Source: Arthrobacter sp. RIT-PI-e (lineage in GTDB: Bacteria; Actinomycetota; Actinomycetes; Actinomycetales; Micrococcaceae). Taken from it: a DNA stretch of 64,000 nt. Positions 15,626 through 51,811 of the stretch are shown here, piece by piece (position 1 is the first letter of the stretch; every line of letters starts with the position of its first letter). Where the stretch lies: NCBI RefSeq assembly GCF_001187915.1, contig NZ_LGIU01000043.1:124001-188000 (forward strand), in the 5' to 3' direction. The notes beneath the pieces were generated by a model. It saw nothing but the letters and a program-made list of their open reading frames with translations. It had not been told where the DNA came from and did not search any database. The translations under genes and the position numbers were made by a program.

Positions 15626-16365
15626 CCGCCCCCTCCGGTGGACCGCTGATCCCCGCGCTCGTGGTCGACGACGACCACGCAGTGGCCGGTATCCACACCG
15701 GCTTCCTGCTCGCGCACGGCGCGTTCGAGGTCGTGGGTGCCGCGCACTCGGGTGCCCGGGCGCTGGAGCTCGTGGACGAGCTGCGGCCCCGGCTCGTCCT
15801 CCTCGACATCCACCTCCCCGACATGACGGGCATCGACGTGCTGCGCGCCCTGCGGAACCGGCCGGGGGAGCCGCTGGACGTCATCGCGATCACGGCGGCC
15901 CGGGAGCTGGACACCGTGCGGGCCGCCGTGGCCGGCGGGGTGCTGCACTACCTCGTGAAGCCCTTCAGCGCTGCCGTGCTGAACCAGCGCCTGGACTCCT
16001 ACGTGGCGTACCGGCGCGAGCTCCACGCCCATGCGACCGACGGCACCGCGGCCCTCGACCAGGGGCGCATCGACCAGCTCCTGCGCACGACGTCGGGCAC
16101 CGGCACCGGCACCGGCACGGCGACCTTCGTCACTCCCAAGGGGCTCTCCGCACCCACGCTCGACGCCGTCGTCCTGGACCTCCGGGGGCACGGTGGCGGG
16201 ACGTCCGCGTCCGACGTCGCGAACCGCCTCGGCATGGCTCGGGTCAGCGCGCGGCGCTATCTCGAGTTCCTCGTCTCGCAGGGCAGGGCGCGGATCGTCC
16301 CGCAGTACGGGTCCGCGGGGCGCCCCGAGAAGTTCTACCTCTGGACGGAGGGCCCGTCCGCCTGA
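15622..16365 (+). CDS. CitB/DcuR-type response regulator
   Basis: 247 residues. The receiver domain shows the acidic pocket VVDDDH, phosphoacceptor Asp62 in LLDIHLPDMTG and Lys113 in YLVKPF. A Gly-Thr repeat linker (residues about 158-166) joins it to a C-terminal winged-helix region (TSASDVANRLGMARVSARRY) as in CitB/DcuR proteins. Its ATG overlaps the stop of the kinase gene. It is the likely DNA-binding partner that activates the tctCBA operon in response to the substrate. Confidence 0.92.
   Translation: MTAPSGGPLIPALVVDDDHAVAGIHTGFLLAHGAFEVVGAAHSGARALELVDELRPRLVLLDIHLPDMTGIDVLRALRNRPGEPLDVIAITAARELDTVRAAVAGGVLHYLVKPFSAAVLNQRLDSYVAYRRELHAHATDGTAALDQGRIDQLLRTTSGTGTGTGTATFVTPKGLSAPTLDAVVLDLRGHGGGTSASDVANRLGMARVSARRYLEFLVSQGRARIVPQYGSAGRPEKFYLWTEGPSA
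16096..16118 (+). repeat. Short GGCACC tandem repeat in response-regulator linker
   Basis: Nearly four copies of GGCACC encode the alternating Gly-Thr linker between receiver and DNA-binding domains. The unit is six bases, so changes in copy number keep the frame and only alter linker length. Confidence 0.6.
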
Positions 16366-16407: not shown

Positions 16408-17475
16408 TCAGGAGATCCCGTGGACCGTCTCGCCGATCCTCGCGTGGGCCAGGAGCCACAGCCGCGCCTCCCCGTGGCCTGAGAGGACGAATCCGCCCGC
16501 GGGGACGACGGCTCCGGTCGGGGATCCGCCCCGGCGGTCGTGCACGCCGGTCACCCTGCCGTCGAGCACGGTCACGTCGCACCCGTACGGACCACGGGAG
16601 GCCAGCACGGTGTCGTCCGTGCAGGCCACCAGGGCATCGGGCCCGCCGGGCACGTCGATGCCCGTGAGCGGGTAGGAGGCACCCCCGATCCTGACCGCGG
16701 GGACGGGAGGGGACATGGGCCTCGGCGGCGGTACGGCGGGCGGTGCGTGCAGGGGCACCGGCGCCGCCAGTACGAGCGGTGCCACCTGGTCGGCGAAGGC
16801 CCAACCGCGCTCGCTGTCGGTCCTGTGCTGCCACACGAATGCCCCGCGGATGGTGGGGAACTCCCTCTGGATCACGCGCCAGGCGGAGCGGATCTGCTCC
16901 AGCGACGAGTAGTTCTCCGCATCCTCCATGCCGAAGCCCACCACGATCTTGCTCGCATCGCCGCCGGCCACGTCCTGCACCCACTCACGCGTGGTCCTGA
17001 CGATGTACGCGGGGTCGGAGAGCCCCGGTCCGTCGTAGAACTGCGGCGCGGCATACGTCATCAGCCCCTGCGACAGCGCCTCGCGGATCATCGCCCTGTC
17101 CTGCTCGTTCCACGGTGCGGGTGGGGAGGTGATGCCGAAGTCCTCGCCGAACCGGCGCTTCAGCTCGCGGAACATCCACAGGTACTCGGTGGTGTCGGGC
17201 GCGAGTTCCGCCTCGAACGTGTTGAAGTCCACGCCGTCGATCACGGGGTCGGTCGAGGTGCCGCCGAGCTCGGTGTTGATGCGCTCGACACTGTCCACGA
17301 AACGCCGGCTCACGGTTCGGGAGGAGAAGTCGATCCCCTGGCCCGCACCACCGGTGGACAGCACCACCTGCTGGCCGCGCGCCCGGACGGTCCTGATGTC
17401 GTCCGCGATCTCGTCCGCCCCCCACTCCACGGCGCCGTCCTCGGTGGAGCGGCCGGCCGCGAACAGGTAGATCAC
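16408..17475 (-). CDS. GH18-like secreted-type hydrolase, start unclear, extra C-terminal module
   Basis: From the GTG at 17475 there are 355 residues, but clear family sequence (AAVYWTRWNPEIPLTEIPQA) lies upstream in the same frame, which is open back to the stop of the deacetylase gene (17611) with no ATG, GTG or TTG in between. The barrel contains VVLSTGGAGQGIDF and the active-site strand IDGVDFNTFEAEL, a variant of the GH18 DGxDxDxE motif in which the second Asp is Asn and the Glu is shifted by one. TYAAPQFYDGPG and AFVWQHRTDSERGWAF fit chitinase-like barrels. After a Pro-rich linker (PPRPMSPPVPAV) the last 95 residues form another module. It may bind or cut a surface glycan; activity is uncertain. 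Confidence 0.7.
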   Translation of the reverse strand: MIYLFAAGRSTEDGAVEWGADEIADDIRTVRARGQQVVLSTGGAGQGIDFSSRTVSRRFVDSVERINTELGGTSTDPVIDGVDFNTFEAELAPDTTEYLWMFRELKRRFGEDFGITSPPAPWNEQDRAMIREALSQGLMTYAAPQFYDGPGLSDPAYIVRTTREWVQDVAGGDASKIVVGFGMEDAENYSSLEQIRSAWRVIQREFPTIRGAFVWQHRTDSERGWAFADQVAPLVLAAPVPLHAPPAVPPPRPMSPPVPAVRIGGASYPLTGIDVPGGPDALVACTDDTVLASRGPYGCDVTVLDGRVTGVHDRRGGSPTGAVVPAGGFVLSGHGEARLWLLAHARIGETVHGIS

Positions 17476-17610
17476 GTTGTACGCCTGCGGGATCTCGGTG
17501 AGCGGAATCTCGGGGTTCCACCGCGTCCAGTAGACGGCGGCAACCTTGTCCGGCAGCCCCGTCCCCGCGGTATCCTCCTGATCCCGGACCAGGCGTATGT
17601 CAGGATCCCT

Positions 17611-18438
17611 TCATCCGTAGGTGTCCAGCACACGGCCGGTGGCGTTCTCGCGGACGTCGGCCGTGGCGCAGAGCTCCCTCTCGTTCATGGTGTCCACGAT
17701 GGCCTGCAGCGCAGCGATCGAGTTGAGCGTCGCCTGGCCCTGGCCGTCGTGCATTGTGATGATCGTCCCGTCCCGCAGCCGCGGTGTCGTGGTGTCGATG
17801 ATCTGCTGCGTCGTGACGCCCTCGGTGTCCCGCGTGTCCACGATGTTGTCCTCGGCCCGGAGCCCCCAGGGCATCACGAGCCGCAGACCGAGTTCCTGGG
17901 CCACCTCGTCCACGCGGGTGTCCACCGCACCGTACGGCGGGCGGTAGAGCGCAGGGTCCGGAGCGCCGGCGGCCACCAGCGCGTCGTCGGTCCGCTGCAG
18001 CTCACCGCGCAACCAGGCCGCCGTCACGGTCTCCTCGCTGCCGTCCGGGAGTACCCCGGTGGTCAGATCGGGATGGCTGTAGCTGTGGTTGCCGATGACG
18101 TGGCCCTCGGCGACGGCGCGGGCCACCGTGCTCTCACGGCCCTCGACCGCCCGCCCGTTCCAGAAGAACACCGCATCGATGCCCAGCCCGTCGAGTGCGT
18201 CGAGCACCTCGGGGGTGTTCCTGCCCGGGCCGTCGTCGAACGTGAAGGTGACGTGACCACCCGAGCAGTCGTTGCTCAGGGGCCGCTCCGCCGCAGGTCC
18301 GCTCCCGGTCCCGGCACCATCGGTGACGGGCACCATCCGGTCGGAGTGCTCCTGGACCACGGCCTGGGAAGCTCCGGCGAGGGCGACGACGGTGACGGTG
18401 GAGGCGGCGACCACCGCCGCCTTCGCACGGTTCCTCAC
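17611..18438 (-). CDS. Polysaccharide deacetylase (NodB domain)
   Basis: 275 residues from a GTG preceded by GGAGGGG. An N-terminal signal or anchor segment (AAVVAASTVTVVALAGASQA) precedes the NodB domain. All catalytic motifs are present: TFTFDDGPG (motif 1), GNHSYSHPDL (motif 2, metal His), RPPYG (motif 3) and ITMHDG (motif 5). It should remove N- or O-acetyl groups from a cell-surface or secreted polysaccharide outside the cell. The start codon overlaps the stop of the GT39-like gene (GTGA), so it belongs to the glycosyltransferase operon, and the GH18-like frame follows in phase after its TGA. Confidence 0.9.
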   Translation of the reverse strand: MRNRAKAAVVAASTVTVVALAGASQAVVQEHSDRMVPVTDGAGTGSGPAAERPLSNDCSGGHVTFTFDDGPGRNTPEVLDALDGLGIDAVFFWNGRAVEGRESTVARAVAEGHVIGNHSYSHPDLTTGVLPDGSEETVTAAWLRGELQRTDDALVAAGAPDPALYRPPYGAVDTRVDEVAQELGLRLVMPWGLRAEDNIVDTRDTEGVTTQQIIDTTTPRLRDGTIITMHDGQGQATLNSIAALQAIVDTMNERELCATADVRENATGRVLDTYG

Positions 18439-19931
18439 TGCCCCTCCACCCTGGTGAACACGAGCCACAGATCCGTCTCGGAGTGCTCACGGGCGGGGAG
18501 GGTGGCGGTCAGCTCGTAGTTCGGGTTGTCCCGGAGCGCCTGGAGCAGGACGTCCTGCACGGCGTCCAGGTCGGGCGTGCCCGTGCCGACGGTGCGCAGG
18601 ATCGCTGTCTCGAAGCGCTGGTCCTCCACGGCCACCCGCACGAGGTCCGGATTCTCGGCGTAGCCGGAGAGCGGCACGTTCCGGATCTCCGGACGGTCAC
18701 GCAGGTGGTAGTCGAGCTGCTCCGCGGCCGGGGAGATGTAGCTGCCCGCGCGCGGGGCCTCCTCGATGACGTCCAGGACCGGGCGTACGTCCACCCAGGA
18801 GGTGTACATGGCTTCCGAGCGGGAGAACCCGAACAGCAGGACGACCATGAGCAGCAGGGTCACCGGCAGGAACTTCCACACGCCCTTGGACAGCTTCGCC
18901 AGGAAGTACCCCGCGGACGGGGCGAGGAAGAGGGCGGAGTACGCCATGTGCTTGTCGAAGGAGACCGCTTCACCGAGCACCAGGTGCGCAGCGGGCATCG
19001 CCATCCCCCCGATGAACAGCAGCGCTGCCAGGACGGCCTGACGCCGGCCGTTGCGTGCCAGGAGGACCATCCCGGCGAGCGCGAGGAGGGCGAGGATGCC
19101 GATGTCGAGGACCATCCACCCCACCAGGTCACCCGGCGAGGCGTCACCGGACACGGTCCGGTCGACAGTGTTGAGTGCGATCCCCGAGGCGATCCGGTCC
19201 GACCACATCAGCCAGGCCGTGGCGGGGAGGGCCACCGTGATCGCGGCGGCCAGAGCAGCTCGCCGTCGCGTCGAGGTGAGCAGGACGATGCCGATCACCA
19301 CCGGCAGGAAGATCACCCCGGCGTACTTGACCATGGGCACCAGGCCCAGGAGCACACCGCTCACCACCGCCGATCCCCAGCCTCTCCGGACCCCGGCCCA
19401 GAGCGCTCCGGCCAGCATCGCCATGACCGGGGCGTCGAACGTGGCGAGAGCACCGACGAACACCACGGGTCCGGTCAGGGCGAGGACCGCGAGGGCGAGC
19501 ATCCCTTCGGAGCGGTACCCCAGGTCCACCGCCGCGCGGTAGACGAAGACGACCGCGGCCAGCACGCACAGCAGGCTGAATCCCCTGACGAGGCCGAGGC
19601 CCCCGAGGGTGTCCAGGACGGCGGCGAGGACGGGGTACAGGAACGGCACGCCGGAGAACGACTCGCCGTACTCCACCACGGCCTGACCCGAGAACCAGTG
19701 GTCGAGGTAGTTGTGCCCGATGGTGATGGAGAGCGCCTCGTCGACGAAGGCGGTGTTGGAGAGCCTCACGCTCAGCACGGTCAACACGGCCAGCAGCCCG
19801 ATCAGCGGGAGGTACGCCACCCGGCGGGGCGTGCTCTCGTGCTGGAACCTGGGCGGCAGCGCCTGGGCGACGGCCTCGTTCCACGCCGGACGGCGGTACT
19901 CGCCCACGGGGCGCTGCAGGATGTGGCTCAT
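18435..19931 (-). CDS. GT39-like (PMT/ArnT-type) membrane glycosyltransferase
   Basis: 498 residues with about ten membrane helices. The first external loop has NTAFVDEALSITIGHNYLDH, in which the D-E pair matches the catalytic acidic loop of GT-C dolichyl/polyprenyl-phosphate sugar transferases; MVKYAGVIFLPVV is a conserved membrane segment. The C-terminal 120 residues are soluble and external. It probably transfers a sugar from a lipid carrier to a glycan or protein at the outer membrane face. It sits between the 55-residue membrane peptide (4-nt overlap) and the deacetylase (4-nt overlap). Confidence 0.78.
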   Translation of the reverse strand: MSHILQRPVGEYRRPAWNEAVAQALPPRFQHESTPRRVAYLPLIGLLAVLTVLSVRLSNTAFVDEALSITIGHNYLDHWFSGQAVVEYGESFSGVPFLYPVLAAVLDTLGGLGLVRGFSLLCVLAAVVFVYRAAVDLGYRSEGMLALAVLALTGPVVFVGALATFDAPVMAMLAGALWAGVRRGWGSAVVSGVLLGLVPMVKYAGVIFLPVVIGIVLLTSTRRRAALAAAITVALPATAWLMWSDRIASGIALNTVDRTVSGDASPGDLVGWMVLDIGILALLALAGMVLLARNGRRQAVLAALLFIGGMAMPAAHLVLGEAVSFDKHMAYSALFLAPSAGYFLAKLSKGVWKFLPVTLLLMVVLLFGFSRSEAMYTSWVDVRPVLDVIEEAPRAGSYISPAAEQLDYHLRDRPEIRNVPLSGYAENPDLVRVAVEDQRFETAILRTVGTGTPDLDAVQDVLLQALRDNPNYELTATLPAREHSETDLWLVFTRVEGQ

Positions 19932-20095
19932 GTGTCCGTCCTCCTCGGAGGCAGGGTGGGATCGTGCTCGTGCTTCGGCAGCATGCGGCGGACGGCGATG
20001 CAGAGCACCAGCAGGGTCAGGGCCGTCAGACCCGCGACGCCCACCATGAAGCCGTTGTGCGTGACCTCCTCGAGGAGGCCCAGGAATTCGTCCAT
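19928..20095 (-). CDS. 55-residue single-span membrane protein of the polysaccharide operon
   Basis: MDEFLGLLEEVTHNGFMVGV begins a short protein with one membrane helix (GLTALTLLVLCIAVRRM) and a charged, Pro-rich tail. The start shares TGATG with the stop of the upstream GT2 gene, and its stop overlaps the GT39-like start (ATGA). This tight double coupling is good evidence that it is real. It may be an accessory subunit of the GT2 synthase, comparable in position only to small partners such as PgaD; no sequence similarity is claimed. Confidence 0.65.
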   Translation of the reverse strand: MDEFLGLLEEVTHNGFMVGVAGLTALTLLVLCIAVRRMLPKHEHDPTLPPRRTDT

Positions 20096-21243
20096 CAGGT
20101 CAGCCACTCCTTCTCTCCGCCGTGCAGCGCCAATCGGAGGGCCTTCCAGTACGCGAACGACTGGTACGTCTCGTAGACCCACAGCGGCACGATGAGCGCG
20201 GCGTAGATCCGCCCGCGCACCCCCGCCTGCCAGGTGGCGATCAGCTGGTCGAGCATGAACACCGGGATGATCAGCAGCCAGAACGGGTGGAACGCCACTT
20301 CCTCGAAACTCAGCGCGTAGCTCCAGATGATGATCATCAACAGGGGGATGATGGTCCGGAAGTAGGTCCAGAGCTGCACACCCCAGGCCTTCCGGGTGTG
20401 CTCCACGAACCCGTAGGTGAGCAGGGTCTCGAGCGTGCCCCGCTGCCACCGCAGGCGCTGGATCCTCCACTCGCGCCAGGTGGGCATCACGTCGGTGTCC
20501 ACGATGCAGTCCGCGGCGCACCGGGGATCGTACCCCACGCGTTTCAGGGCGACGGTGAGCTCGTAGTCCTCGGTCAACGAGGACTCGTCGTAGACCTGTC
20601 CCTCCACGCCCGGGAGCACCTTGCTGCCCCGCATCTCGGCCACCCTGCGCAGCGCCTCGACGGTGAAGACGGCGGCCGCCCCGGAGAGCACGTGGATGCG
20701 TCCGGCACGCCGGTGGACGGCTCGCAGGCCCTGGGTGTACTCGATCTTCTGCAGGAGTGCCACGCGTGAGGGGTGGTCCGCGGCCACGTAGGAGCCACTG
20801 ATCCCTCCTCGCTGCGGCCAGTACTCGAAGTACCTCATGCCGATCTCCACGAAGTCCTGGTTCAGCCGGCTGTCCGCGTCCATCATCAGCACGACGTCGT
20901 GCGGCTGGAGGTCCGGGAGCACCAGGGCGAGCCCCTGGTTGAGAGCACCCGCCTTCTTGGCGGCGTTGTCCCTGGTCTCCAGGACCTCCACCCCCATGGC
21001 CCTGGCGATCTCCACCGTGCCGTCGCTGCAGTTGTCGGCCGCGACGATGATGTGGTCCGGTGCCTGGGTCTGGCGACGCAGGCTGTCGATCGTCTGCGCG
21101 ATCCCGATCTCCTCGTTGTGCGCAGGGATGATCGCGATGACCCGCGCGGGTGGTTGCTGCTCCCGGGCCTCCTGCAGCAGGGAACCCGGCGCCGCCTCCT
21201 TCCCCGGTACCCCCGTACCGAGGATCTCGTCACTCAGGTGCAC
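20095..21243 (-). CDS. Processive GT2 glycosyltransferase (PgaC/IcaA-like)
   Basis: 382 residues from a GTG with GGAGG six nt upstream. The GT-A domain carries VIAIIPAHNEE, DNCSDGT, the metal-binding DAD (122-124), the catalytic TED (224-226) and QRLRW (262-266), the signature of membrane-bound processive synthases such as poly-beta-1,6-GlcNAc and cellulose synthases. Three or four membrane helices follow. It should polymerise a UDP-sugar and move the chain across the membrane. It heads an operon with a small membrane protein, a GT39-like enzyme, a NodB deacetylase and a GH18-like protein, which resembles a pga/ica-type arrangement. The sugar is probably GlcNAc given the deacetylase, but this is inference. 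Confidence 0.85.
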   Translation of the reverse strand: MHLSDEILGTGVPGKEAAPGSLLQEAREQQPPARVIAIIPAHNEEIGIAQTIDSLRRQTQAPDHIIVAADNCSDGTVEIARAMGVEVLETRDNAAKKAGALNQGLALVLPDLQPHDVVLMMDADSRLNQDFVEIGMRYFEYWPQRGGISGSYVAADHPSRVALLQKIEYTQGLRAVHRRAGRIHVLSGAAAVFTVEALRRVAEMRGSKVLPGVEGQVYDESSLTEDYELTVALKRVGYDPRCAADCIVDTDVMPTWREWRIQRLRWQRGTLETLLTYGFVEHTRKAWGVQLWTYFRTIIPLLMIIIWSYALSFEEVAFHPFWLLIIPVFMLDQLIATWQAGVRGRIYAALIVPLWVYETYQSFAYWKALRLALHGGEKEWLT

Positions 21244-21804
21244 GGCAGGCCTCCGTTCCGCCCGGAGGGGAGGAGCCCGGCATCCCGGGCGCCTCGATGC
21301 AGCGGCCCCGGGCCGGTCCCGCGGACGAGGGACCTCGAATACGGTCGGGGATCGACGACGGCAGACAGGATGGCTGCTCCTCATGAGGTGAAGCCGCGGG
21401 GTAGAAGCGCTCGCGACGGGGGTGGTCTTCCGGATGTGCGCAAGCGGGGCGCGAAGTGCTGTCCCCCGGTGGATCGTCACGAGGGCACAAGTATCCCCCC
21501 GGACGTGCGTACTCATTCAGGATGACTCCGGCACCGATCCCGTACACGAGTGAGGTGTACGCAAGATTCGAGAGGGAATACCTCACCGGGCGGTAGGCAC
21601 CACCTATGGACCACTTGACACCTGTCGGCGAGGAAGTGGGTGCGGGTCAGTGACACCGGGGATGAGCGCCGATCATCCCCGTCGGGGCGCCGATCCACCG
21701 CCAGTGCACCGACGTCGGGTGCAGGCTCGCGCCCCGGGGAACCGGGCCGTGTGAATCATCACACACCCGGTCCGGTCCCAGTGGGCCCCGGTGACCGCAC
21801 CCGG
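21244..21804. other. Long intergenic region upstream of the GT2 operon
   Basis: About 560 bp without a convincing gene. It contains an inverted repeat GTACAC (21542-21547) / GTGTAC (21555-21560) and a hairpin, CCGGGCCGTGTGA (21742-21754) with TCACACACCCGG (21759-21770), just beyond the end of the GAF gene. The first may be a regulator site for the minus-strand operon, the second a terminator for the GAF gene. Confidence 0.45.
21742..21770 (-). terminator. Hairpin downstream of the GAF gene
   Basis: GTGTGA and TCACAC flank a 4-nt ATCA loop and are extended on both sides by mostly paired G/C. It begins 34 nt after the end of the GAF coding region. There is no U tract. An operator function is also possible because GTGTGA-N4-TCACAC is a symmetrical site. 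Confidence 0.4.
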
Positions 21805-22431
21805 CTACGACCGCGCGTCGCCCACGTGGTTCAGCTCGAGTTCCGCCTCCCGGGCGAGATGCTCGAAGTACCGGTACTCACGCGGATCGAGTCCCCGTGG
21901 TTCCGTGCCGAGAAGGCAGAAGGTACCCACGAACCAGCCTCCGGGTCCCCGCAGGGGCACACCTGCGTAGAAGCGGAGGAAGGGTGCTCCGGTGACGTAC
22001 GGATTCCGTGCGAACCGCTCGTCCGCCAGCAGGTCCGGCACCACCAGCGGTTCCTCGCCCCGGATGGTCACGGTGCAGATCGAGACGTCCCGCGGGAGGT
22101 TCAGGGGCAGGGTGCCCGTGGAGGACTTGAGGTACTGCCGGTCGTCGGCGATCAGCGAGATGATCGAATCCATGACCCCGAACCGGTTCTGCGCCTCGCG
22201 GGTGAGGCGGTCGAAGCGCTCCTCCCGGCCGGAATCCAGCAACCCGCATCTCTCGACCGAACGGATCCGGTACCGCTCGGCCTCGTGGAACGCACCGGTC
22301 CTGGGCGGTGCCGGCGAACTCCGGAGCTGCGCTGTGGGCACTGAAGTCACTGGGTATGTCCGCTCGGGTGGAAGGTCGACGTCGTATCCGCACCGGAGGG
22401 GACGAACACCTCCATCCTGCCCGTCGGGCAT
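21805..22431 (-). CDS. GAF domain-containing protein
   Basis: 208 residues from an ATG; a GTG at 22350 is an alternative start. The GAF domain starts near residue 50: RYRIRSVERCGLLDSGREER, then LIADDRQYLKSSTG and DVSICTVTIRGEEPLVVPDL, as in the stand-alone GAF sensors of actinobacteria. The end (LRFYAGVPLRGPGGWFVGTF) is the usual last strand. There is no attached output domain, so it would bind a small ligand or redox signal and act through a partner. It lies between the exopolysaccharide synthase operon and the GH16 gene and may belong to their regulation, which is a guess from position. Confidence 0.75.
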   Translation of the reverse strand: MPDGQDGGVRPLRCGYDVDLPPERTYPVTSVPTAQLRSSPAPPRTGAFHEAERYRIRSVERCGLLDSGREERFDRLTREAQNRFGVMDSIISLIADDRQYLKSSTGTLPLNLPRDVSICTVTIRGEEPLVVPDLLADERFARNPYVTGAPFLRFYAGVPLRGPGGWFVGTFCLLGTEPRGLDPREYRYFEHLAREAELELNHVGDARS

Positions 22432-22608
22432 CGTCCCGGACCGTCCCGGACCTCACCCCGACGTGAAACCTGCGGAGAACCTTCGTCCGGGCGTCGCCGA
22501 CCTGCGCGGGGACGGCGGCGCGGGCGGGCGCCGAGCATCCTCGTCACCTCCCACGCGCGAGCCCGGGAGCGAGGACGGACAGGAGGCGGATCCTTCCGCC
22601 CCGGAGGG

Positions 22609-23784
22609 TCACCGTCCGCCACGCACCACCGGGGAGCAGCGCGAGCTGTCGCAGATCTGGTGGCGGACCGACGCCGTCCTCGTCGTCGTCGTGAAGCTCC
22701 CGGTGTTCTCGATGCTCCGCCGGACCCCGTTGCTCACCAGGGCCACGGTGGATCCCTTCGCCCCGGACCAGGTGAGCGTGGTCGTGATCGTGCCACGGAC
22801 CTTGGAGCTCTTCGAGGTGAGCTTGATGGGAGCGGGGACCGGCTTCGGCTTCGGGGGAACAGGCACCGCGGTCGGGACCGGAACCGGCTTCGGAGGAACA
22901 GGCACCGCGGTCGGGGCGGGCAGTGGACCTGCGACGGCGCCCGCGGGGGTGAAGGAGAAGTCGCGGACGACGACCTGCTCGGGCCTCACCCGTGCCGGGT
23001 CCCCCCCTCCACCTCCGGTGACCCAGAGGTTGAAGTGGACGGTCTCACGGGCCGGCGTCGGCACCTTCCCACCCTCCAGCACCGTGCGCTTGAGCAGCGG
23101 CCCGGAGGAGTCCTTCCCCGCGAAGGTCTCGAAGGTCAGCTTCCTCGGTTCCCACACCAGCCGGTGCGTGAGGACCGGGTGGTCGGTCACGTCGAAGACG
23201 GTGGTGTCGTTCCCCGCCCCCGGCGGGAGGCTCGCATCGAACCAGTAGCCGTGGCCCTGCGTGATGGGCCACTGCTGCTTGCCGGTTCCCCCACCCCAGG
23301 CACTGGCCTCGCACAGGTCCACCTCGTTGTACCCGGGCGCCACCGAGGCGTCGTAGGTGAAGAGGCAACCCCACACCACTTCCTTCTGCAGGCTCGAGAG
23401 ATCCTTCTCCACCGTGGTGCTGTAGGTGCCGTAGCCGAACCCGCGCCGGGTACTGATGAGTTCGGCACCCACGGGCGCCTGCCCGGTCGGGTTGGAGAGC
23501 GTCAACGTCACGTGACCGTTCGCATCGGGGTCGCCGACGTTCGCGGCGTCGAACTTCCCGTTGTAGTTCGGGCCGCCTCCGTACCGGCGCTTCTCCCAGT
23601 TGAAACCCTTCCAGGAGAAGTCGCCCGAGGGTCCTGGGTCCGCGATGACGGACGGCGTCTCGGCCGCGACACCGGGAGCCGGCACGAGGGCCCCCAGGAG
23701 CAGGGCCGCCAGAACCGTTCCGAGGGTCGTGCGGCGGAGGTGCGCCGCACGGCGTGGGGCGGCACGGACAGGTGTGACGGACAT
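22609..23784 (-). CDS. Secreted GH16-family glycoside hydrolase
   Basis: 391 residues from an ATG with GGAGG upstream. A signal peptide (LGTVLAALLLGALVPAPGVAAE) precedes a concanavalin-like barrel with FSWKGFNWEKR, GKFDAANVGDP, RRGFGYGTYSTTVE and the active-site strand NEVDLCEASAW, which matches the GH16 E-x-D-x-x-E motif. A Pro-Val-Lys repeat linker leads to a C-terminal Ig-like domain (TLTWSGAKGSTVALVSNGVR). GH16 enzymes cut beta-1,3/1,4-glucans or galactans. It is secreted and lies next to two glycan synthases, so it may trim or release the polymer made by this locus. Confidence 0.78.
   Translation of the reverse strand: MSVTPVRAAPRRAAHLRRTTLGTVLAALLLGALVPAPGVAAETPSVIADPGPSGDFSWKGFNWEKRRYGGGPNYNGKFDAANVGDPDANGHVTLTLSNPTGQAPVGAELISTRRGFGYGTYSTTVEKDLSSLQKEVVWGCLFTYDASVAPGYNEVDLCEASAWGGGTGKQQWPITQGHGYWFDASLPPGAGNDTTVFDVTDHPVLTHRLVWEPRKLTFETFAGKDSSGPLLKRTVLEGGKVPTPARETVHFNLWVTGGGGGDPARVRPEQVVVRDFSFTPAGAVAGPLPAPTAVPVPPKPVPVPTAVPVPPKPKPVPAPIKLTSKSSKVRGTITTTLTWSGAKGSTVALVSNGVRRSIENTGSFTTTTRTASVRHQICDSSRCSPVVRGGR
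22840..22916 (-). repeat. Imperfect 39-nt tandem repeat encoding Pro-Val-Lys linker
   Basis: The segment containing GGAACAGGCACCGCGGTCGG occurs twice, 39 nt apart, coding for repeated P-T-A-V-P-V-P-P-K-P units between the catalytic and Ig-like domains of the GH16 protein. The unit is a multiple of three. Confidence 0.65.
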
Positions 23785-24155
23785 GGCAGGAACCTCCACT
23801 GTTCGGTAGCCCGGCGAACCGCGAGGGTCCCGTGGCTTTGCGTCCCCGGTTCGCACCGGGTTTGCCCTTGTCGACGAGCACGTGCCCGGCGGGGACCGGC
23901 GAACCTGCTCGAGGCGGTCGCCGGGCTTCCCATGGTGCCGCACCGCGATCGGACGCGAACCGCCGACAGGCACAACAATTCGTCAGGATTGCCGCATTCG
24001 AACCGCAGGCGCCATTTCGTATCGTCGCTCGGGTACCTTGAATCCAAGCTCGGTGGTCCTCTCGGACCCGGTGAGTGTCTCAGTGCTGCCGACCCGGCGC
24101 ATACAAGTCACCGAAGCGCCGTCGTGCGCGAGTTGGAAGTGGAGAGTGCTGGAGC
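23785..24155. other. Divergent promoter region between GH16 and cellulose-synthase-like operons
   Basis: 370 bp without a gene; noticeably less GC-rich around 23970-24060 than the rest of the window, as expected for promoters. It must drive the GH16 gene to the left and the synthase/GH26/OpgC genes to the right. I see no clear consensus hexamers or operator. Confidence 0.4.
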
Positions 24156-26267
24156 ATGACTGCGCCGTCCCAGGGGGGACCTCCCGCGAACGAACAGCAC
24201 CCGGCGTCGAACGGCTCGGTGACAGGACGGATGCTCCTCATCCGGGGAATCGTCCTCGTGACGGCGATCCTGGGCACCAACTACGTCGTGTGGCGTTGGC
24301 TCTACTCCATCAACTGGGACGCCTGGTGGATCGCCATCCCGCTGGTGCTGGCCGAGACGTACTCGCTGGTCGACTCCCTCCTGTTCGGCTTCACCGTGTG
24401 GCGGCTCAAGAAACGGGAGCCGCCCGAGGCTCCCGAGGGCCTCACCGTGGACGTCTTCATCACCACCTACAACGAACCGCTCGACCTCGTGCTCACCACG
24501 GCGCGGGCCGCCAAGGCCATCCGGTACCCGCACCGGACCTACATCCTCGACGACGGCAACCGCGCCGAGGTCCGCGCCGCCGCCGAGGCGGAGGGCATCG
24601 ACTGGATCACCCGCTCCGCCGACTGGAAGAACATGCCGCGGCATGCGAAGGCCGGCAATCTGAACAACGCCCTGGCCTCGACGGACGGCGAGTTCCTCGT
24701 GATCCTCGACGCGGACCAGATCCCGGACCCCGAGATCCTCCACAGGACGCTCGGGTACTTCACGAACGAGAAGATGGCACTGGTCCAGACGCCCCAGGTG
24801 TTCGTCAACGTTCCGGACTCGGACCCGCTCGGCAGCCAGGCACCGCTGTTCTACGGGCCCATCCAGCAGGGCAAGGACGGCTGGAACGCGGCATTCTTCT
24901 GTGGTTCGAACGCCATCATCCGCCGCGAGGCCCTCATGCAACTCGGCGTCACGCGCTACGTGACGGAGATCGAACTGGCCCTCCACAAGGCACTGAAGAC
25001 ATCCGACAAGGTCATCGCGAAGGCGAAGAAGGGCCTCGGCAAGGACAACGACCGGGTGTCGGACGCCCTCGACCTCGTGACGAAGGACCTGCGGAGGGTA
25101 CGGCGCCGCCTGCAGAAGGGGCACGGCATCTCGGAGGTAACCTACGAGTTCCAGCAGCGGATGACGTCCATCACCCGGTTGCTCGTCGCTGCGGACATCG
25201 CGGCGTTCCACGAGGACCTCGCCTCGCTCGGCGACCTCTCGTCCCTCGAGGACCTCGGCCTCACCGGACTCGACGCCGGACTGCAGGACGCCGCGGTCTC
25301 GGCCCCCGGTCTGGCCGTCGTCGGCGATGCCGCCCTCGATCAGCTCGCGCAGCGCGCGTGGTCGCCACTCGCCGCGATCGACGCCGTCCGCGTCCTCATC
25401 GAATCGGTCAACGCGGACCGCAGCGGGGAGGCGCAGGCCGTGATGCCGATGGCCACCATCTCCGTCACCGAGGACATGGCCACCTGCATGCGCCTGCACT
25501 CCCTCGGGTGGGAATCCGCCTACCACCACGAGAAGCTCGCCGACGGCCTGGCACCCGAGGACCTGAACTCCATGCTGACGCAGCGCCTCCGGTGGGCACA
25601 GGGAACCATCCAGGTCATGTTCCGGGAGAACCCCTTCGCACAGAAGGGGCTGACGTTCGCCCAGAAGCTCATGTACTGGGCCACGATGTGGAGCTACTTC
25701 TCCGGCTTCACCGCCCTCGTCTACCTCGCGGCGCCCATCATCTACCTGATCTTCGGCATCCTCCCCGTCGACTCCATCAGCATCGAGTTCTTCGCACGGT
25801 TGATCCCGTTCCTCGTGGTGAACCAGCTGCTCTTCGCGATCGTGGGCAAGGGCACCAGGACCTGGCGCGGCCAGCAGTACTCGCTGGCACTGTTCCCGGT
25901 CTGGATCCGCTCGGTCACCTCGGCCTTCGGCAATGTCTACCTGGGGAGGAGCCTGGACTTCGCCGTCACCCCGAAGACCCTGCAGCAGGACGCACAACTG
26001 CGCTGGGACCTGGTCAAACCGCAGCTCTGGGCCATGGGCCTGCTGGTGGCGGCCACCGTCATCGGCCTCGTCCGTCTCGCGGTGGGGCAGGCGGACGTCC
26101 TCGGGACGTCGATCAACATCGTCTGGGTCGTCTTCGACCTCCTGATCTTCAGCGTCGTCGTCGAGGCCGTGCGGTACCGCGGCTACGAGCACTACCAGAC
26201 CGACATCGCCGCCGCGAAGTCGCGACAGGAGAGACGACAGGAGAAACGACGGGAGGGAGGGCGATGA
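24156..26267 (+). CDS. Cellulose-synthase-like GT2 with large helical insertion
   Basis: 703 residues. Two N-terminal membrane helices, then the GT-A domain with VDVFITTYNEP, DDG (132-134), DAD (185-187), PQVFVNVPDSDPLGSQ, FFCGSNAIIRREAL (248-260), TED (438-440) and QRLRW (476-480), and about five C-terminal helices: the full set of BcsA-type synthase motifs. Between GSNAIIRR and TED, normally some 20-30 residues apart, lies a predicted alpha-helical, charged insertion of about 170 residues. No PilZ domain is seen. It should polymerise UDP-glucose or a related sugar into a beta-glycan and export it. It is followed with a 4-nt overlap by a secreted GH26-like gene and then OpgC. Confidence 0.85.
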   Translation: MTAPSQGGPPANEQHPASNGSVTGRMLLIRGIVLVTAILGTNYVVWRWLYSINWDAWWIAIPLVLAETYSLVDSLLFGFTVWRLKKREPPEAPEGLTVDVFITTYNEPLDLVLTTARAAKAIRYPHRTYILDDGNRAEVRAAAEAEGIDWITRSADWKNMPRHAKAGNLNNALASTDGEFLVILDADQIPDPEILHRTLGYFTNEKMALVQTPQVFVNVPDSDPLGSQAPLFYGPIQQGKDGWNAAFFCGSNAIIRREALMQLGVTRYVTEIELALHKALKTSDKVIAKAKKGLGKDNDRVSDALDLVTKDLRRVRRRLQKGHGISEVTYEFQQRMTSITRLLVAADIAAFHEDLASLGDLSSLEDLGLTGLDAGLQDAAVSAPGLAVVGDAALDQLAQRAWSPLAAIDAVRVLIESVNADRSGEAQAVMPMATISVTEDMATCMRLHSLGWESAYHHEKLADGLAPEDLNSMLTQRLRWAQGTIQVMFRENPFAQKGLTFAQKLMYWATMWSYFSGFTALVYLAAPIIYLIFGILPVDSISIEFFARLIPFLVVNQLLFAIVGKGTRTWRGQQYSLALFPVWIRSVTSAFGNVYLGRSLDFAVTPKTLQQDAQLRWDLVKPQLWAMGLLVAATVIGLVRLAVGQADVLGTSINIVWVVFDLLIFSVVVEAVRYRGYEHYQTDIAAAKSRQERRQEKRREGGR

Positions 26268-27742
26268 GCCGGGGGCTCCGCGGCACCCGGGCGGCCATCG
26301 TGCTCCTGCTCGTCACCCTGGTCACCCTGCTGGTCGGGCTGCCGGCCGGAGCAGCACCGGCGCAGGCGGCCCCGCCCGCGCCCACCACCGCGGTCCGGAC
26401 CGACGAACCCCCGCTCCCCGATCCCACCGCGCTCACCGACGGCCGGTACTTCGGCCCGGAGCTCGACTGGTCCGCGAGCAGTGCCGGCGCCTACACCGAC
26501 CGCGCAGGGATCACCCCGTCGGTGTTCAGCCGCCCGTTCCCCTACCCGCTCGATGCCGCCGCCGAACGCGACCTCGTCGACCTCGCGCGGCAGCAGTCCC
26601 GGCTCGGAGCCGTCGCAGTACTGACCCTCGAGCCGTCGGGCCCCCTCGAGGAGCTCACGACGGACGACGCCGAGCAGCTGGCGTCCACCCTGGCCCGCGT
26701 GGGCGGGGACTTCCGCACGGCATTCTTCATCCGCTTCGCACCGGAGATGAACGGCACGTGGGTGGACTGGGGGCAGCAGCCCGACACCTACGTGGATGCG
26801 TTCGCCACCGTCGCGGACGCCGTGCACGAGCAGGTGCCGACGGCCGCCATGGTGTGGGCGCCGTCGTACGCCGCCGGGTACCCGTTCACCGAGGCGTACG
26901 GTGCGGTGGAAGGGCTGGACGCGGGCAGCGTCACCGCACTGGACACGAACGGCAACGGCCTGATCGACGCGGGCGACGACCCGTACGCCCCGTACTACCC
27001 GGGCGACGACGCCGTGGACTGGGTGGGCCTGTCCATGTACCACTTCGGGAGCTACGTACAGGGCGCCACCACCAGCGCCGACGGCACGCGCGAGTACTCC
27101 GGGGCCATCACCACCTCGGTGCTGCCGGAGCCGGACAAGTTCACCGACCAGCTTGCCGGCACCTACGGCATGGCCCCGGGGGCGCCGCGCATCGACTTCG
27201 CGAAGGAGTACGGAGCGGACCGGGGCAACCGGATGATCGTCCAGACGGCCGCGCTCTTCGACCCGGAGGACCAGGAGAGCGCTCCCGAGGCGGAGATCAA
27301 GGAGGCCTGGCTGGACCAGCTGTTCGATCCCGCGCTCGCCGAGGAGTACCCCGAGATCGGGATGGTGGTCTGGCTGGAGGCCGCCCGCCCCGAGCCGGAG
27401 GCCGGCGGGAACACCGTGGACTGGGGCCTCCTGACGGACGCGGCGGCGACGGCGGCACTCCGGGACACGGTGCACGACTTCACCGGCCTGCAGCTCGGCC
27501 CCGTCACCGAGGGGATCACGCAGGAGGACGCGAACAGCTCCACGGCCCAGGGGGGGGAGACGAGCGGTGGCACGAACGAGGCCATGAACTGGCTCGTGGC
27601 CTCGGGGTCGGCGTGGCAGGTCCCCTACCCCGGGCCGCCCGGGCGCGCCGCTTCCTGCCGCAGTGGCGCTCCCCCGCCGAGAACAACCCCCGTGACATGC
27701 GCCTGGACCTGCTGCGCGGCTGGATCATCACCGCCGTGGTGA
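26264..27742 (+). CDS. Secreted GH26-like glycoside hydrolase (possible 5' part of a GH-OpgC fusion)
   Basis: 492 residues. The signal peptide (AAIVLLLVTLVTLLVGLPAG) is followed by a TIM barrel with FFIRFAPEMNGTWVDWG; Glu161 in PEMNG matches the GH26 acid/base. Glu315 in DFAKEYGAD is the best candidate nucleophile. VDWVGLSMYHFG is another barrel strand seen in mannanase-like proteins. After about residue 440 the sequence becomes linker-like, and the last residues (from about 27640) look like a wrong-frame tail that runs over the OpgC gene. The ATG overlaps the synthase stop (ATGA). It may trim the polymer during export, like the BcsZ cellulase in position, though from another family. Confidence 0.75.
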   Translation: MSRGLRGTRAAIVLLLVTLVTLLVGLPAGAAPAQAAPPAPTTAVRTDEPPLPDPTALTDGRYFGPELDWSASSAGAYTDRAGITPSVFSRPFPYPLDAAAERDLVDLARQQSRLGAVAVLTLEPSGPLEELTTDDAEQLASTLARVGGDFRTAFFIRFAPEMNGTWVDWGQQPDTYVDAFATVADAVHEQVPTAAMVWAPSYAAGYPFTEAYGAVEGLDAGSVTALDTNGNGLIDAGDDPYAPYYPGDDAVDWVGLSMYHFGSYVQGATTSADGTREYSGAITTSVLPEPDKFTDQLAGTYGMAPGAPRIDFAKEYGADRGNRMIVQTAALFDPEDQESAPEAEIKEAWLDQLFDPALAEEYPEIGMVVWLEAARPEPEAGGNTVDWGLLTDAAATAALRDTVHDFTGLQLGPVTEGITQEDANSSTAQGGETSGGTNEAMNWLVASGSAWQVPYPGPPGRAASCRSGAPPPRTTPVTCAWTCCAAGSSPPW

Positions 27743-28851
27743 TCACGCACATCGAGGTGGCCGGGCCGTGGTCCTTCATCGCCCTGAACCTCGTGGGAGC
27801 CATCACCGGGGCCGAACTGTTCGTGATCCTCTCGGGGGTGGTCATGGGCATGGTGTACCCGATCGCCGTCCGCAAACTGGGGTCGGGAGCAGCGGCGAAG
27901 GGCACCGTCAGACGCGCGGTGCGCCTGTACCTGACGGCTCTCGGCGTCGTGATCACGGTGTACCTGCTCTCCCTGGTGCCGTTCATCGACGCCTCCGTGA
28001 TCACCACGTTCACCGATCGCGGGACGGGGGACACCGGGATCGGCGCAGCGGGCCGCGTGTACGACCTGTACCCCAACGCGGCCAGGCTCTTCGACTACCC
28101 GCCGCCCGGGTACGCGATCCGCGACCTGCTGCTGCTGAACATGGGCCCGTGGACGTTCAACATCATGGGGCTGTTCGTGGTGCTGACCCTCACCGTCCCG
28201 GTGCTCGTGGAACTGCTGCGGAGGAAGCTGTGGTGGCTCCTGCTGGTGGTCAGCTGGGCGCTGTACCTGGTGGACTCCGTGCTCCACGTCCGTGTGATCG
28301 ACGCGCAGTTCCAGGACGTCTTCCCGCTGCTGACCTGGCAGGTGGTCTTCGTGCACGGAGTGGTGATCGGCTTCTACCGCCGCAGGATCATCGACACGCT
28401 CAGCAGTCTCCGGGGCAAGATCCTCATCGGCGTCCTGGCAGGGATCTACGCGCTGGGGCTGGGGCTCCTGTGGCTGGACGCGACCCTCGGGCTGCAGCTG
28501 CCCTTCATCCCCGACGGCGCCTACGAGGACCTGTACGACGCCGGGTACGTGCGCGTGTTCCTGCAACCGGGCCGGCTGATCGACCTCGCGTTCTTCGTCG
28601 TGGCCGCGCACATCATCCTGACCTGCTTCTGGAAACCGGTGGAGCGGATGGTGGGGTGGCTCTACATCCCCCTGGGCCAGGCGAGCCTCTACGTGTTCAT
28701 CGTCCACGTGTTCTTCGTGCTGGCCGTGGGCAACATCCCCGGACTGGACCGCACCAGCTTCTGGCAGGGCCTGCTGGTCCACACCGTGGTGACGCTGCTC
28801 ATCTGGGTCATGGTGCGCAGGAAGTTCCTGTTCTCCGTGATCCCGAGCTGA
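27697..28851 (+). CDS. opgC: OpgC-type membrane acyltransferase
   Basis: 384 residues from the ATG of MRLDLLRGWIITAVVITHIE. The NPRDMRLDLLRG opening, FVILSGVVMGMVYP and about ten membrane helices are diagnostic of OpgC, the succinyl (acyl) transferase that decorates periplasmic glucans in proteobacteria. Homologous sequence extends upstream (RRFLPQWRSPAENNPRD), in a frame that continues the GH26-like protein only if one base is shifted near 27640. There is no Shine-Dalgarno before this ATG. It probably adds acyl groups to the glycan made by the upstream synthase. Either a separate protein or the C-terminal half of a fusion. Confidence 0.82.
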   Translation: MRLDLLRGWIITAVVITHIEVAGPWSFIALNLVGAITGAELFVILSGVVMGMVYPIAVRKLGSGAAAKGTVRRAVRLYLTALGVVITVYLLSLVPFIDASVITTFTDRGTGDTGIGAAGRVYDLYPNAARLFDYPPPGYAIRDLLLLNMGPWTFNIMGLFVVLTLTVPVLVELLRRKLWWLLLVVSWALYLVDSVLHVRVIDAQFQDVFPLLTWQVVFVHGVVIGFYRRRIIDTLSSLRGKILIGVLAGIYALGLGLLWLDATLGLQLPFIPDGAYEDLYDAGYVRVFLQPGRLIDLAFFVVAAHIILTCFWKPVERMVGWLYIPLGQASLYVFIVHVFFVLAVGNIPGLDRTSFWQGLLVHTVVTLLIWVMVRRKFLFSVIPS

Positions 28852-28861
28852 CCGCCGGGAC

Positions 28862-29545
28862 TCATCCGCGCGGACCCCTGTGGCGCAGTACGCGCCGCCA
28901 CAGGGGTACCCGGGGTGTTTCCGGTGGCGCGGGCGCCTCGGCGGTCCGGCGTGCGGCGGCCCGCCGCTCGCGCCAGCGCTCCCCCTCGGGGGCCACCTCC
29001 CGCAGCTTGGTGATCACGGGCGGGCCGCCGAGGAGCTGGCGGCGGGCGTCGATCACCCGGTAGTTGAAATCCTCCAGCACCTCACGGACCTGCTGCTCCG
29101 TGTAGAGGCGGTCCAGGCGGTCGTCGAGCTCGGCGTCCTCGTGCCGCAGCAGGATGGCCCGCGGTCCGAGTCCCGTGATGTTCTCCCGCTGGATCAGGCC
29201 CTTGACCCACCAGTCGGGGTCGTGGCTCTCCCCGAGACCCGGGATCGGCTTGCCCGCCAGTGCCAGGTCGTCGAACTCCCCGGCCGCCACCGCACGGTCC
29301 ACGATCAGACGCGCACGCTTGACCTCGTCCTCCCCCGCGCGCAACGGAGCCAGCTCGCCGGGTGCGCCGTCGTCGTGCTGGCGTCCGAACTCGTCCAGTG
29401 CGTCACCGGCACCCTCGGTGCCGGCGTGTGCCGCGCGGTACTGGGCCGCCCCGCGCAGCCGTTCCCCGTGCTCGGGGGGTCTGCTGATGACGCTGCCCTC
29501 CCCCGTGGGCACCCCCGCTGGCCGCGCTGTCCTCGGACCCAGCAT
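28862..29545 (-). CDS. DUF1992 (DnaJ-homologue C28-like) protein
   Basis: 227 residues from ATG 29545; longer GTG starts exist and the true start is uncertain. The domain shows ARLIVDRAVAAGEFDDLALA, GKPIPGLGESHDPDWWVKGL and LPPAI-like LGPRAILLRHE, all typical of DUF1992. The C-terminal part is Arg-rich. Function unknown; eukaryotic relatives act in trafficking, but bacterial ones are not characterised. Its last codons contain a perfect hairpin that may also terminate the convergent OpgC operon. Confidence 0.75.
   Translation of the reverse strand: MLGPRTARPAGVPTGEGSVISRPPEHGERLRGAAQYRAAHAGTEGAGDALDEFGRQHDDGAPGELAPLRAGEDEVKRARLIVDRAVAAGEFDDLALAGKPIPGLGESHDPDWWVKGLIQRENITGLGPRAILLRHEDAELDDRLDRLYTEQQVREVLEDFNYRVIDARRQLLGGPPVITKLREVAPEGERWRERRAAARRTAEAPAPPETPRVPLWRRVLRHRGPRG
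28874..28907. terminator. Hairpin inside the 3' end of the DUF1992 gene
   Basis: ACCCCTGTGGCG and CGCCACAGGGGT form a perfect 12-bp stem (28874-28885 with 28896-28907). It lies 23 bp after the OpgC stop, so it is well placed to end the synthase-GH26-OpgC transcript while also coding for the last residues of the convergent gene. Confidence 0.6.
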
Positions 29546-51809: not shown

Positions 51810-51811
51810 GC

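Follow-up and report, generated by a model that had tools for sequence, protein, structure and literature searches.

Do two membrane polysaccharide synthases that are encoded almost side by side, among genes for enzymes predicted to trim and modify their products, constitute one locus or several? This question is raised by positions 16408 to 28851 of a 64,000-nucleotide stretch of DNA, hereafter the window (positions 124,001 to 188,000 of contig NZ_LGIU01000043.1, assembly GCF_001187915.1), from the draft genome of Arthrobacter sp. RIT-PI-e (3.46 Mb in 104 contigs). An initial annotation had proposed a single surface-polysaccharide locus with two synthases of glycosyltransferase family 2 (GT2), a deacetylase, hydrolases and an OpgC acyltransferase. 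Comparison of gene neighbourhoods did not confirm that these genes belong to a single locus. Rather, we consider it likely that the span holds three separable units, A, B and C, at a variable site bounded by a conserved pair of histidine kinase (HK) and response regulator (RR) genes on one side and a DnaJ-C28-like gene on the other. Gene content, a riboswitch match, independent occurrence of the units and their conserved neighbours are the observations behind this reading; every activity and polymer named below is a prediction.

Gene calls and Pfam matches place the HK and RR genes on the plus strand, followed on the minus strand by genes for a GH18-like protein, a NodB deacetylase, a PMT-like transferase, a small membrane peptide and the synthase GT2a (unit B), and then for a GAF-domain protein and a GH16-fold hydrolase that is preceded by a riboswitch (unit C). 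The GT2b, GH26-like and OpgC genes (unit A) come next on the plus strand, and the DnaJ-C28-like gene on the minus strand. As first described, two membrane GT2 genes with complete DAD, TED and QxxRW motifs (QRLRW in both) lie on opposite strands within 5 kb; GT2a (20095 to 21243, minus) and GT2b (24156 to 26267, plus) are 2.9 kb apart. The sCache HK gene (14021 to 15625, plus) and the RR gene, whose product has a DpiA-like helix-turn-helix (15622 to 16365, plus), are kept at the same site in the clade, where the DnaJ-C28-like gene (28862 to 29545, minus) closes the site. By agilis group we mean the clade of the closest named GT2b relatives among the matches listed, namely Arthrobacter agilis, A. 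bussei, A. cheniae and other Arthrobacter.

Evidence for separate units comes from the distribution of the two synthases. A profile scan of one genome per species across 84,980 named species yielded at least 591 stretches, at least 550 of them with a GT2b relative; we retained the 80 best (L116-L195; L and G numbers denote loci and genomes). GT2a occurs in none of these 80 GT2b neighbourhoods, even across the whole 10-kb flanks, and in none of the loci L033-L058 either. Fifteen of the 80 stretches are shorter than 20 kb, such that some absences reflect contig ends. Co-occurrence of the two halves, which the initial annotation had named as the test of its proposal, is therefore not observed, and the halves are better regarded as two systems than as one. 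The closest loci in our family sample, L033 and L034, have a space between RR and GT2b that is free of the minus-strand block; they keep unit A and lack units B and C. Conversely, G079 carries GT2a and GH16 at the same site with no GT2b there.

An integrated locus, in which both synthases, the deacetylase, the hydrolases and OpgC jointly produce and modify a single matrix, would account for the physical proximity of the genes and for the arrangement in G079, where a GT2a cassette, the GAF gene and GH16 lie to either side of the same HK-RR pair. Given the 80 neighbourhoods without GT2a, the missing block in L033 and L034, and the G079 site with GT2a and GH16 but no GT2b, we reject the single-locus reading on neighbourhoods and judge it very improbable.

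Several points nevertheless weigh against a clean division into three units. In G079, the same HK-RR genes are surrounded by unit B, the GAF gene and unit C, all within 18 kb of one another, and thus these three are not fully independent in the genus. In the window itself, units B and C are on one strand and separated by nothing but the GAF gene, which makes co-regulation possible in this strain. On a Paracoccus plasmid, GH16, OpgC, SpoIIE, GAF, GT2 and DUF3131 genes are annotated together; since GAF, GH16 and OpgC there accompany a GT2b-like GT2, the GAF and GH16 genes may belong to unit A. The GH18-like and GH26-OpgC genes look damaged, and so parts of the span may be inactive. Finally, both the gene calls and the family models are heuristic.

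What, then, is unit A? Alignment with BcsA shows that GT2b carries the DxD, TED and QxxRW motifs of a cellulose-synthase-like membrane GT2, and the protein scores 357.5 bits against TIGR03030 (BcsA), below the curated cut-off of 699.1. A Pfam scan finds no PilZ domain in GT2b, which in alignment stops before the C-terminal part of Caballeronia BcsA. BcsB was not matched among the neighbouring window proteins, to which the BcsB scan was confined. Between the RREAL and TED motifs, GT2b contains a lineage insertion (24936 to 25466) that spans 153-177 residues, with a median of 158, in the 79 loci, out of 80, for which it was measured. The synthases of the Paracoccus plasmid and of a Nostoc plasmid align without an insertion of that length. 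A search of a plasmid collection for plasmid-borne copies of GT2b returned distant synthases only, none of which covered 80% of the query.

Downstream of GT2b are genes for a secreted GH26-like protein (26264 to 27742, plus) and an OpgC_C acyltransferase (27697 to 28851, plus; 169.6 bits). The acyltransferase is as first annotated. The GH26 assignment holds in part, as the protein falls below the Pfam cut-off (17.7 versus 20.2 bits) yet is alignable with GH26-like proteins of its kin. In relatives such as L033, GH26 and OpgC are the front and rear parts of one open reading frame (ORF), whereas in the window a frame change splits them. The two window genes overlap but are read in different frames, and no linker helix like that of the relatives can be recognised. 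By gene calls and Pfam, no STAS, HATPase or SpoIIE gene lies beside GT2b in the window. Judged by sequence, the GT2b-GH26-OpgC set is a reduced member of a synthase operon of Actinomycetota. We propose that GT2b would polymerise and export a beta-glycan, that GH26 would trim this glycan outside the cell, and that OpgC would add acyl groups.

The fuller form of this operon is seen in the relatives. A GT2b relative above 700 bits is present in 26 of the 149 genomes of the family sample, our own included; stretches around such relatives were fetched and their genes called, and the resulting family loci were used to build neighbour models, some genomes of the 80 loci being identical with family ones. 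Within 4.5 kb of GT2b, the 80 loci contain HATPase (71), GH26 (66), STAS (58), SpoIIE-type (51) and OpgC (49) genes, a single GH26-OpgC ORF in 48, and GH16 in 2. The earlier idea that synthase, trimming hydrolase and acyl modification belong together thus survives for the plus-strand half. Outside the agilis group, the usual order is receiver-SpoIIE or GAF-SpoIIE, GT2b, a STAS protein of 110 amino acids, and an HATPase protein of about 143; STAS, HATPase and SpoIIE are all present in 51 of these 73 loci. In one sample locus, Pfam scores are 121 bits for SpoIIE, 68 for STAS and 45 for HATPase_c_2. By contrast, none of the seven agilis-group loci has STAS, HATPase or SpoIIE, whereas six have the GH26-OpgC ORF. 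A comparable set is found on the Nostoc plasmid, where one stretch contains ORFs for DUF3131, a GH26-like protein (19.6 bits, cut-off 20.2), DUF3131, GT2, PIG-L, STAS, SpoIIE, a receiver and HATPase_c_2.

By gene content, GT2b relatives belong to an Actinomycetota operon predicted to encode a SpoIIE phosphatase, a PilZ-less GT2, a STAS protein, an anti-sigma-type ATPase and a GH26-OpgC protein that is often fused. In such operons, the dephosphorylated STAS protein would switch the synthase, possibly by way of the cytoplasmic insertion. This putative STAS switch of the synthase is, on the same grounds, absent from the agilis group. A riboswitch at GT2b itself was also considered, but no Rfam match at gathering level was found in 20 GT2b loci (L033-L052), beyond which cmscan covered only L121 and L122.

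Unit B is of a different kind. The GT2a score against TIGR03937, the model for PgaC/IcaA poly-N-acetylglucosamine synthases, is 65.9 bits, below the cut-off of 422.3. Beside it lie genes for a single-helix membrane peptide (19928 to 20095, minus; 55 amino acids), a multi-span PMT_2/GT39-like transferase of 498 amino acids (18435 to 19931, minus; 27.2 bits, just over the cut-off of 26.1), a NodB/CE4 polysaccharide deacetylase (17611 to 18438, minus; PF01522, 107 bits) and a GH18-like protein with no obvious signal peptide (16408 to 17475, minus). The first three of these neighbours had been recognised correctly. The GH18-like label is retained as a weak resemblance, because the protein falls below the Pfam cut-off (19.8 versus 29.6 bits) and its DxxDxNxxE motif, read by eye, is atypical. 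The gene is reminiscent of the hydrolase half of PgaB.

GT2a, the small peptide, NodB and the PMT-like gene recur together in another locus of the genus (L092) and in another genus (L094), in this order as called in both, and in another lineage of the phylum (L321), where the pairing of synthase with deacetylase holds as well. Each of these cassettes encodes in addition a large protein in which a GH18-like part, so labelled by our own model, is joined to a galactose-oxidase-like part (L092:1774-4530 and L094:10547-13813) or a GSDH part (L321:12826-16227). In a phylogenetic tree, the window GT2a clusters with the GT2a proteins of these three loci with support of 100/100, on a long branch (1.33) that the tree program flagged as unsure. 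Relative to them, the window cassette lacks the oxidase part and has the order of NodB and PMT reversed.

The PMT-like gene is rare, occurring at E<=1e-30 in 6 of 396 genomes of the order, our own included; the L094 genome is not among these matches. Its four matches outside the genus were considered as kin of the GT2a cassette and rejected, as they sit in a neighbourhood of another kind: none is by GT2a, those in G313, G209 and G274 adjoin a GT2b-like synthase, and that in G255 is about 5 kb from one. The minus-strand set is best described, from its genes, as a rare cassette with apparent kin in other genera. GT2a, helped by the single-helix peptide, would make a second polymer. As NodB and GH18-like genes accompany GT2a, this polymer probably contains amino sugars and is probably deacetylated. 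A paralogue of GT2a elsewhere in the genome (G000:C39:39130-40173; L109:5693-7471) is followed by a different conserved membrane peptide of 73-79 amino acids (GILLPESVL...), a pairing also seen in L095, L108, L263, L270 and L271.

Could the span instead be a decaying cargo site, a variable spot that gains and loses glycan genes and in which part of the minus-strand cassette and of GH26-OpgC no longer works? The GH18-like frame continues in the same frame from the NodB stop with no ATG, GTG or TTG across 17475 to 17611, and its GH18 homology starts just after that stop, upstream of the only start codon. The break of the GH26-OpgC frame within the linker, the window peptide without LAXTG, the long GT2a branch and the draft state of the genome point the same way. 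However, each gene called in the block has a positive codon-position GC score, the motifs of both synthases are intact, and the riboswitch scores above its cut-off. On balance, we find decay of this kind unlikely, and retain the reading of three units at a variable site.

Unit C was in part overlooked by the initial annotation. The single RNA found in an Rfam scan of the window is an aptamer for the messenger cyclic di-GMP (c-di-GMP), a full-length c-di-GMP-I-GGC riboswitch (RF03167; 23875 to 23801, minus; 69.2 bits versus a gathering score of 59). It ends 16 nucleotides before the start codon of the GH16 gene (22609 to 23784, minus), with a GGAGG ribosome-binding site in between. The minimum free energy fold of this leader is no better than that of shuffled sequences (z 0.11). 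Riboswitches of this class occur in 12 of the 149 family genomes (10 over cut-off) and in 32 of 38 genus genomes. The next long ORF at 41 riboswitch loci encodes an OmpR-like regulator (15), GH26 (10), GH16 (2) or a protein with no family given (6), while the search motif missed in 8; this set mixes strong matches with some below cut-off, and one regulator was checked with Pfam. One example is a second c-di-GMP-I-GGC riboswitch in the same genome (G000:C27:9194-9268; L001, L059), which precedes an OmpR-like regulator with receiver and Trans_reg_C domains. In L097, L099, L103 and L105 (the last by coordinates), a c-di-GMP-I-GGC riboswitch directly precedes a secreted GH26 gene, with no GT2b in the stretch.

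A c-di-GMP-I riboswitch stands directly before GH16 at seven loci: the window, G079, Leaf234, A. bussei, G009, G520 and G540. The riboswitches of G079, Leaf234 and A. bussei match the parent family RF01051 best, and those of G520 and G540 were placed by coordinates. Relatives of the GH16 gene exist in 10 of 38 genus genomes, and no listed riboswitch precedes those of G099, G536, G539 and G541 or the further copies in G520. In the proposed scheme, the c-di-GMP riboswitch would set expression of the secreted GH16 hydrolase, either on or off, and this hydrolase would remodel such polymers.

The assignment to GH16 was upheld by fold and motif, but not by Pfam. No GH16 Pfam model is listed at E<=1 for any of the 16 members of the family, all of which, including the window protein (EVDLCE), carry the ExDxxE motif. 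A structure model with mean predicted local distance difference test (pLDDT) of only 57.4, built with the 16 sequences (40.8 from the single sequence), was compared by Foldseek with 4w65 (E 1.4e-7) and 1byh_A (E 1.8e-7, TMt 0.68) among its matches. The best 19 rows are mostly GH16 beta-glucanases, with PL7 lyases and lectins further down. This low-confidence model supports a GH16-like beta-jelly-roll fold for the predicted hydrolase.

To which synthase might GH16 belong? It adjoins a short-type GT2a in 11 loci (L093, L253-L261 and L307) and is absent from the short-type loci L262 and L272. A partnership with the window GT2a is weakened by the tree, in which the latter lies in the PMT-cassette clade, apart from the nine of these 11 that the tree included. 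At the same chromosomal site in L121 and L122, GH16 is also found beside GT2b without GT2a. The GAF-domain protein (21805 to 22431, minus; 208 amino acids; Pfam 42.3 bits), which had been named correctly, is up to 44% identical to the GAF part of GAF-SpoIIE phosphatases encoded beside GT2b elsewhere, as in L035.

The tiny peptide beside GT2a raises a further question. The small membrane peptide had been noticed from the outset, and in relatives it measures 50-65 residues, mostly with an LPXTG/LAXTG motif, a helix and a basic tail. At the short-type loci, the gene after GT2a encodes about 54-65 residues with the start MYNNP..., an LAxTG motif, one hydrophobic helix and a basic end. The window peptide, a gene call, keeps the position, the helix and the basic tail; it has an acidic N-terminus and no LAXTG. 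A profile built from nine peptides was run on the 396 order genomes and matched 33 places. All 11 strong matches (E<=1.3e-7) are small frames (<=137 codons between stops) beside a GT2 of the GT2a kind, although this GT2 is divergent in one pair, in L306. There, an LAVTG peptide (L306:8369-8548) lies upstream of a GT2 that is 22% identical to GT2a and has its own N-terminal hydrophobic segment.

The remaining 22 matches (E>=2.6e-6) are not beside GT2a in the stretches seen. Among the 20 first examined, 18 end no more than 20 residues short of the stop codon of a longer ORF and carry an LAXTG/LPXTG-like motif (the exceptions are L289 and L293), which marks them as sorting signals of surface proteins. 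The other two matches were examined later, and one of them, in G253, occupies a frame of 121 codons where a contig ends. Across the phylum, a search found 14 places, five beside GT2a and nine not; two of the nine fall within small frames, 97 and 106 codons long (L315/L348 and L320/L349). In the genus of G719, GT2a (E<=1e-40) occurs in 20 of 219 genomes, giving 22 loci, and the genomes with a match measure 8-12 Mb. The peptide accompanies GT2a at 17 of these loci, 14 by a motif rule within 1.5 kb and three by a laxer look, and was found at none of the other five. The motif rule gave no peptides in 1.65 Mb of GT2b loci, a control that covered this rule only. In L254, a short-type GT2a locus with GH16, no peptide was called.

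A sortase-like gene is also present at two of the 22 loci, L324 and L325. In L323, the same place as L324, it scores 112 bits against Pfam Sortase and 177.7 bits against the NCBIfam class E sortase model (cut-off 160). Sortases occur in 18 of 18 genomes tested, four of which have no GT2a match, and therefore sortase presence only permits an anchoring idea.

We tentatively advance such an idea, which we regard as doubtful at present: synthases of the GT2a type in Actinomycetota may use the mini-peptide as a bare substrate of class E sortase. The N-terminal tail of the peptide would lie outside the cell, and the growing or finished polysaccharide would be joined to it, with the conserved Tyr2 as a possible point of attachment. 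Sortase would then cut at LAXTG and tie the polymer covalently to peptidoglycan, from which a neighbouring GH16 or GH26, set by a riboswitch in some Arthrobacter, would release it again. The window would represent a derived member that has lost the motif, with its polymer shed or held differently. By-eye inspection of the small peptides reveals no signal peptide, which counts against this scheme.

Alternatively, the peptide might do no more than serve the synthase as a membrane subunit, in the manner of IcaD or PgaD, both here and in the relatives, and the sortase-like motif would have no function. This is a quite credible account that falls somewhat short of probable. It fits a single helix beside a GT2 that by eye lacks an N-terminal membrane pair, the absence of LAXTG in the window and its replacement by LTYAG in family f17. 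Pfam sorting-signal models match none of five peptides scanned, and LPXTG_anchor comes just under its cut-off (15.4 versus 15.9) for one relative. Yet LAXTG/LPXTG is maintained across genera, the peptide hidden Markov model matches C-terminal sorting signals in 18 of 20 loci with longer ORFs, and a class E sortase gene adjoins the pair in L323.

How do these units compare with known systems? BcsA (TIGR03030; PDB 4hg6 and 7lby, the best solved matches) shares the catalytic GT2 core and membrane frame with GT2b, which differs in lacking PilZ, in the insertion of about 158 residues before TED, and in the STAS/SpoIIE partners of most relatives. Unit B resembles PgaC/IcaA with a NodB-type deacetylase (PgaB, IcaB) and Streptomyces MatAB in combining a GT2, a small membrane partner and a CE4 deacetylase, but has an extra PMT-like gene, and its relatives have oxidase domains. 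NCBIfam NF058583, 'LAXTG motif-containing small protein', likewise describes stand-alone short LAXTG peptides. It matches 9 of 14 relatives at 15-35 bits, all under the cut-off of 65, whereas five relatives and the window peptide are unmatched and the model name makes no link to a synthase. GlxA resembles galactose oxidases. The CslA/GlxA pair, much like L092 and L094, ties a GT2 synthase to a galactose-oxidase-like protein, whereas the window has no oxidase domain, another gene order and other partners.

Streptomyces CslA/GlxA is named in PMC5972031. In the MatAB papers (PMC4391728, PMC5972031), MatB is described as a NodB-GT2 fusion, unlike unit B, and the term sortase appears in neither text. 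In Vibrio fischeri, the STAS protein of the SypA/SypE system controls syp polysaccharide and biofilm output (PMC4517449); relatives of GT2b differ in encoding STAS, kinase and phosphatase with the synthase itself, and all three are absent in the window. The GH26 gene in an Actinoplanes exopolysaccharide paper belongs to a predicted Wzx/Wzy cluster, a different system (PMC13390465). Among the matches listed by a literature search that lay mostly outside subscription papers, neither half of the span is described, nor is a partner-switching synthase operon, a pair of synthase and LAXTG peptide, or a c-di-GMP riboswitch before these hydrolases. Elsewhere in the window, at 50193 to 53404, is a tandem pair of similar ORFs that start with ...IYxVYPRSFADGDGDG and are GH13-like by eye.

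To our knowledge, the means by which Gram-positive bacteria fix synthase-made exopolysaccharides to their walls are poorly understood. A conserved pairing of a synthase with a peptide that resembles a sortase signal, joined at two loci by a sortase, offers a directly testable answer. As a separate matter, the complete partner-switching module that accompanies a cellulose-synthase-like enzyme suggests that polymerisation is controlled by protein phosphorylation, instead of by PilZ and c-di-GMP. Riboswitches before secreted hydrolases would, in turn, place matrix remodelling under c-di-GMP, the very messenger that usually drives matrix building.

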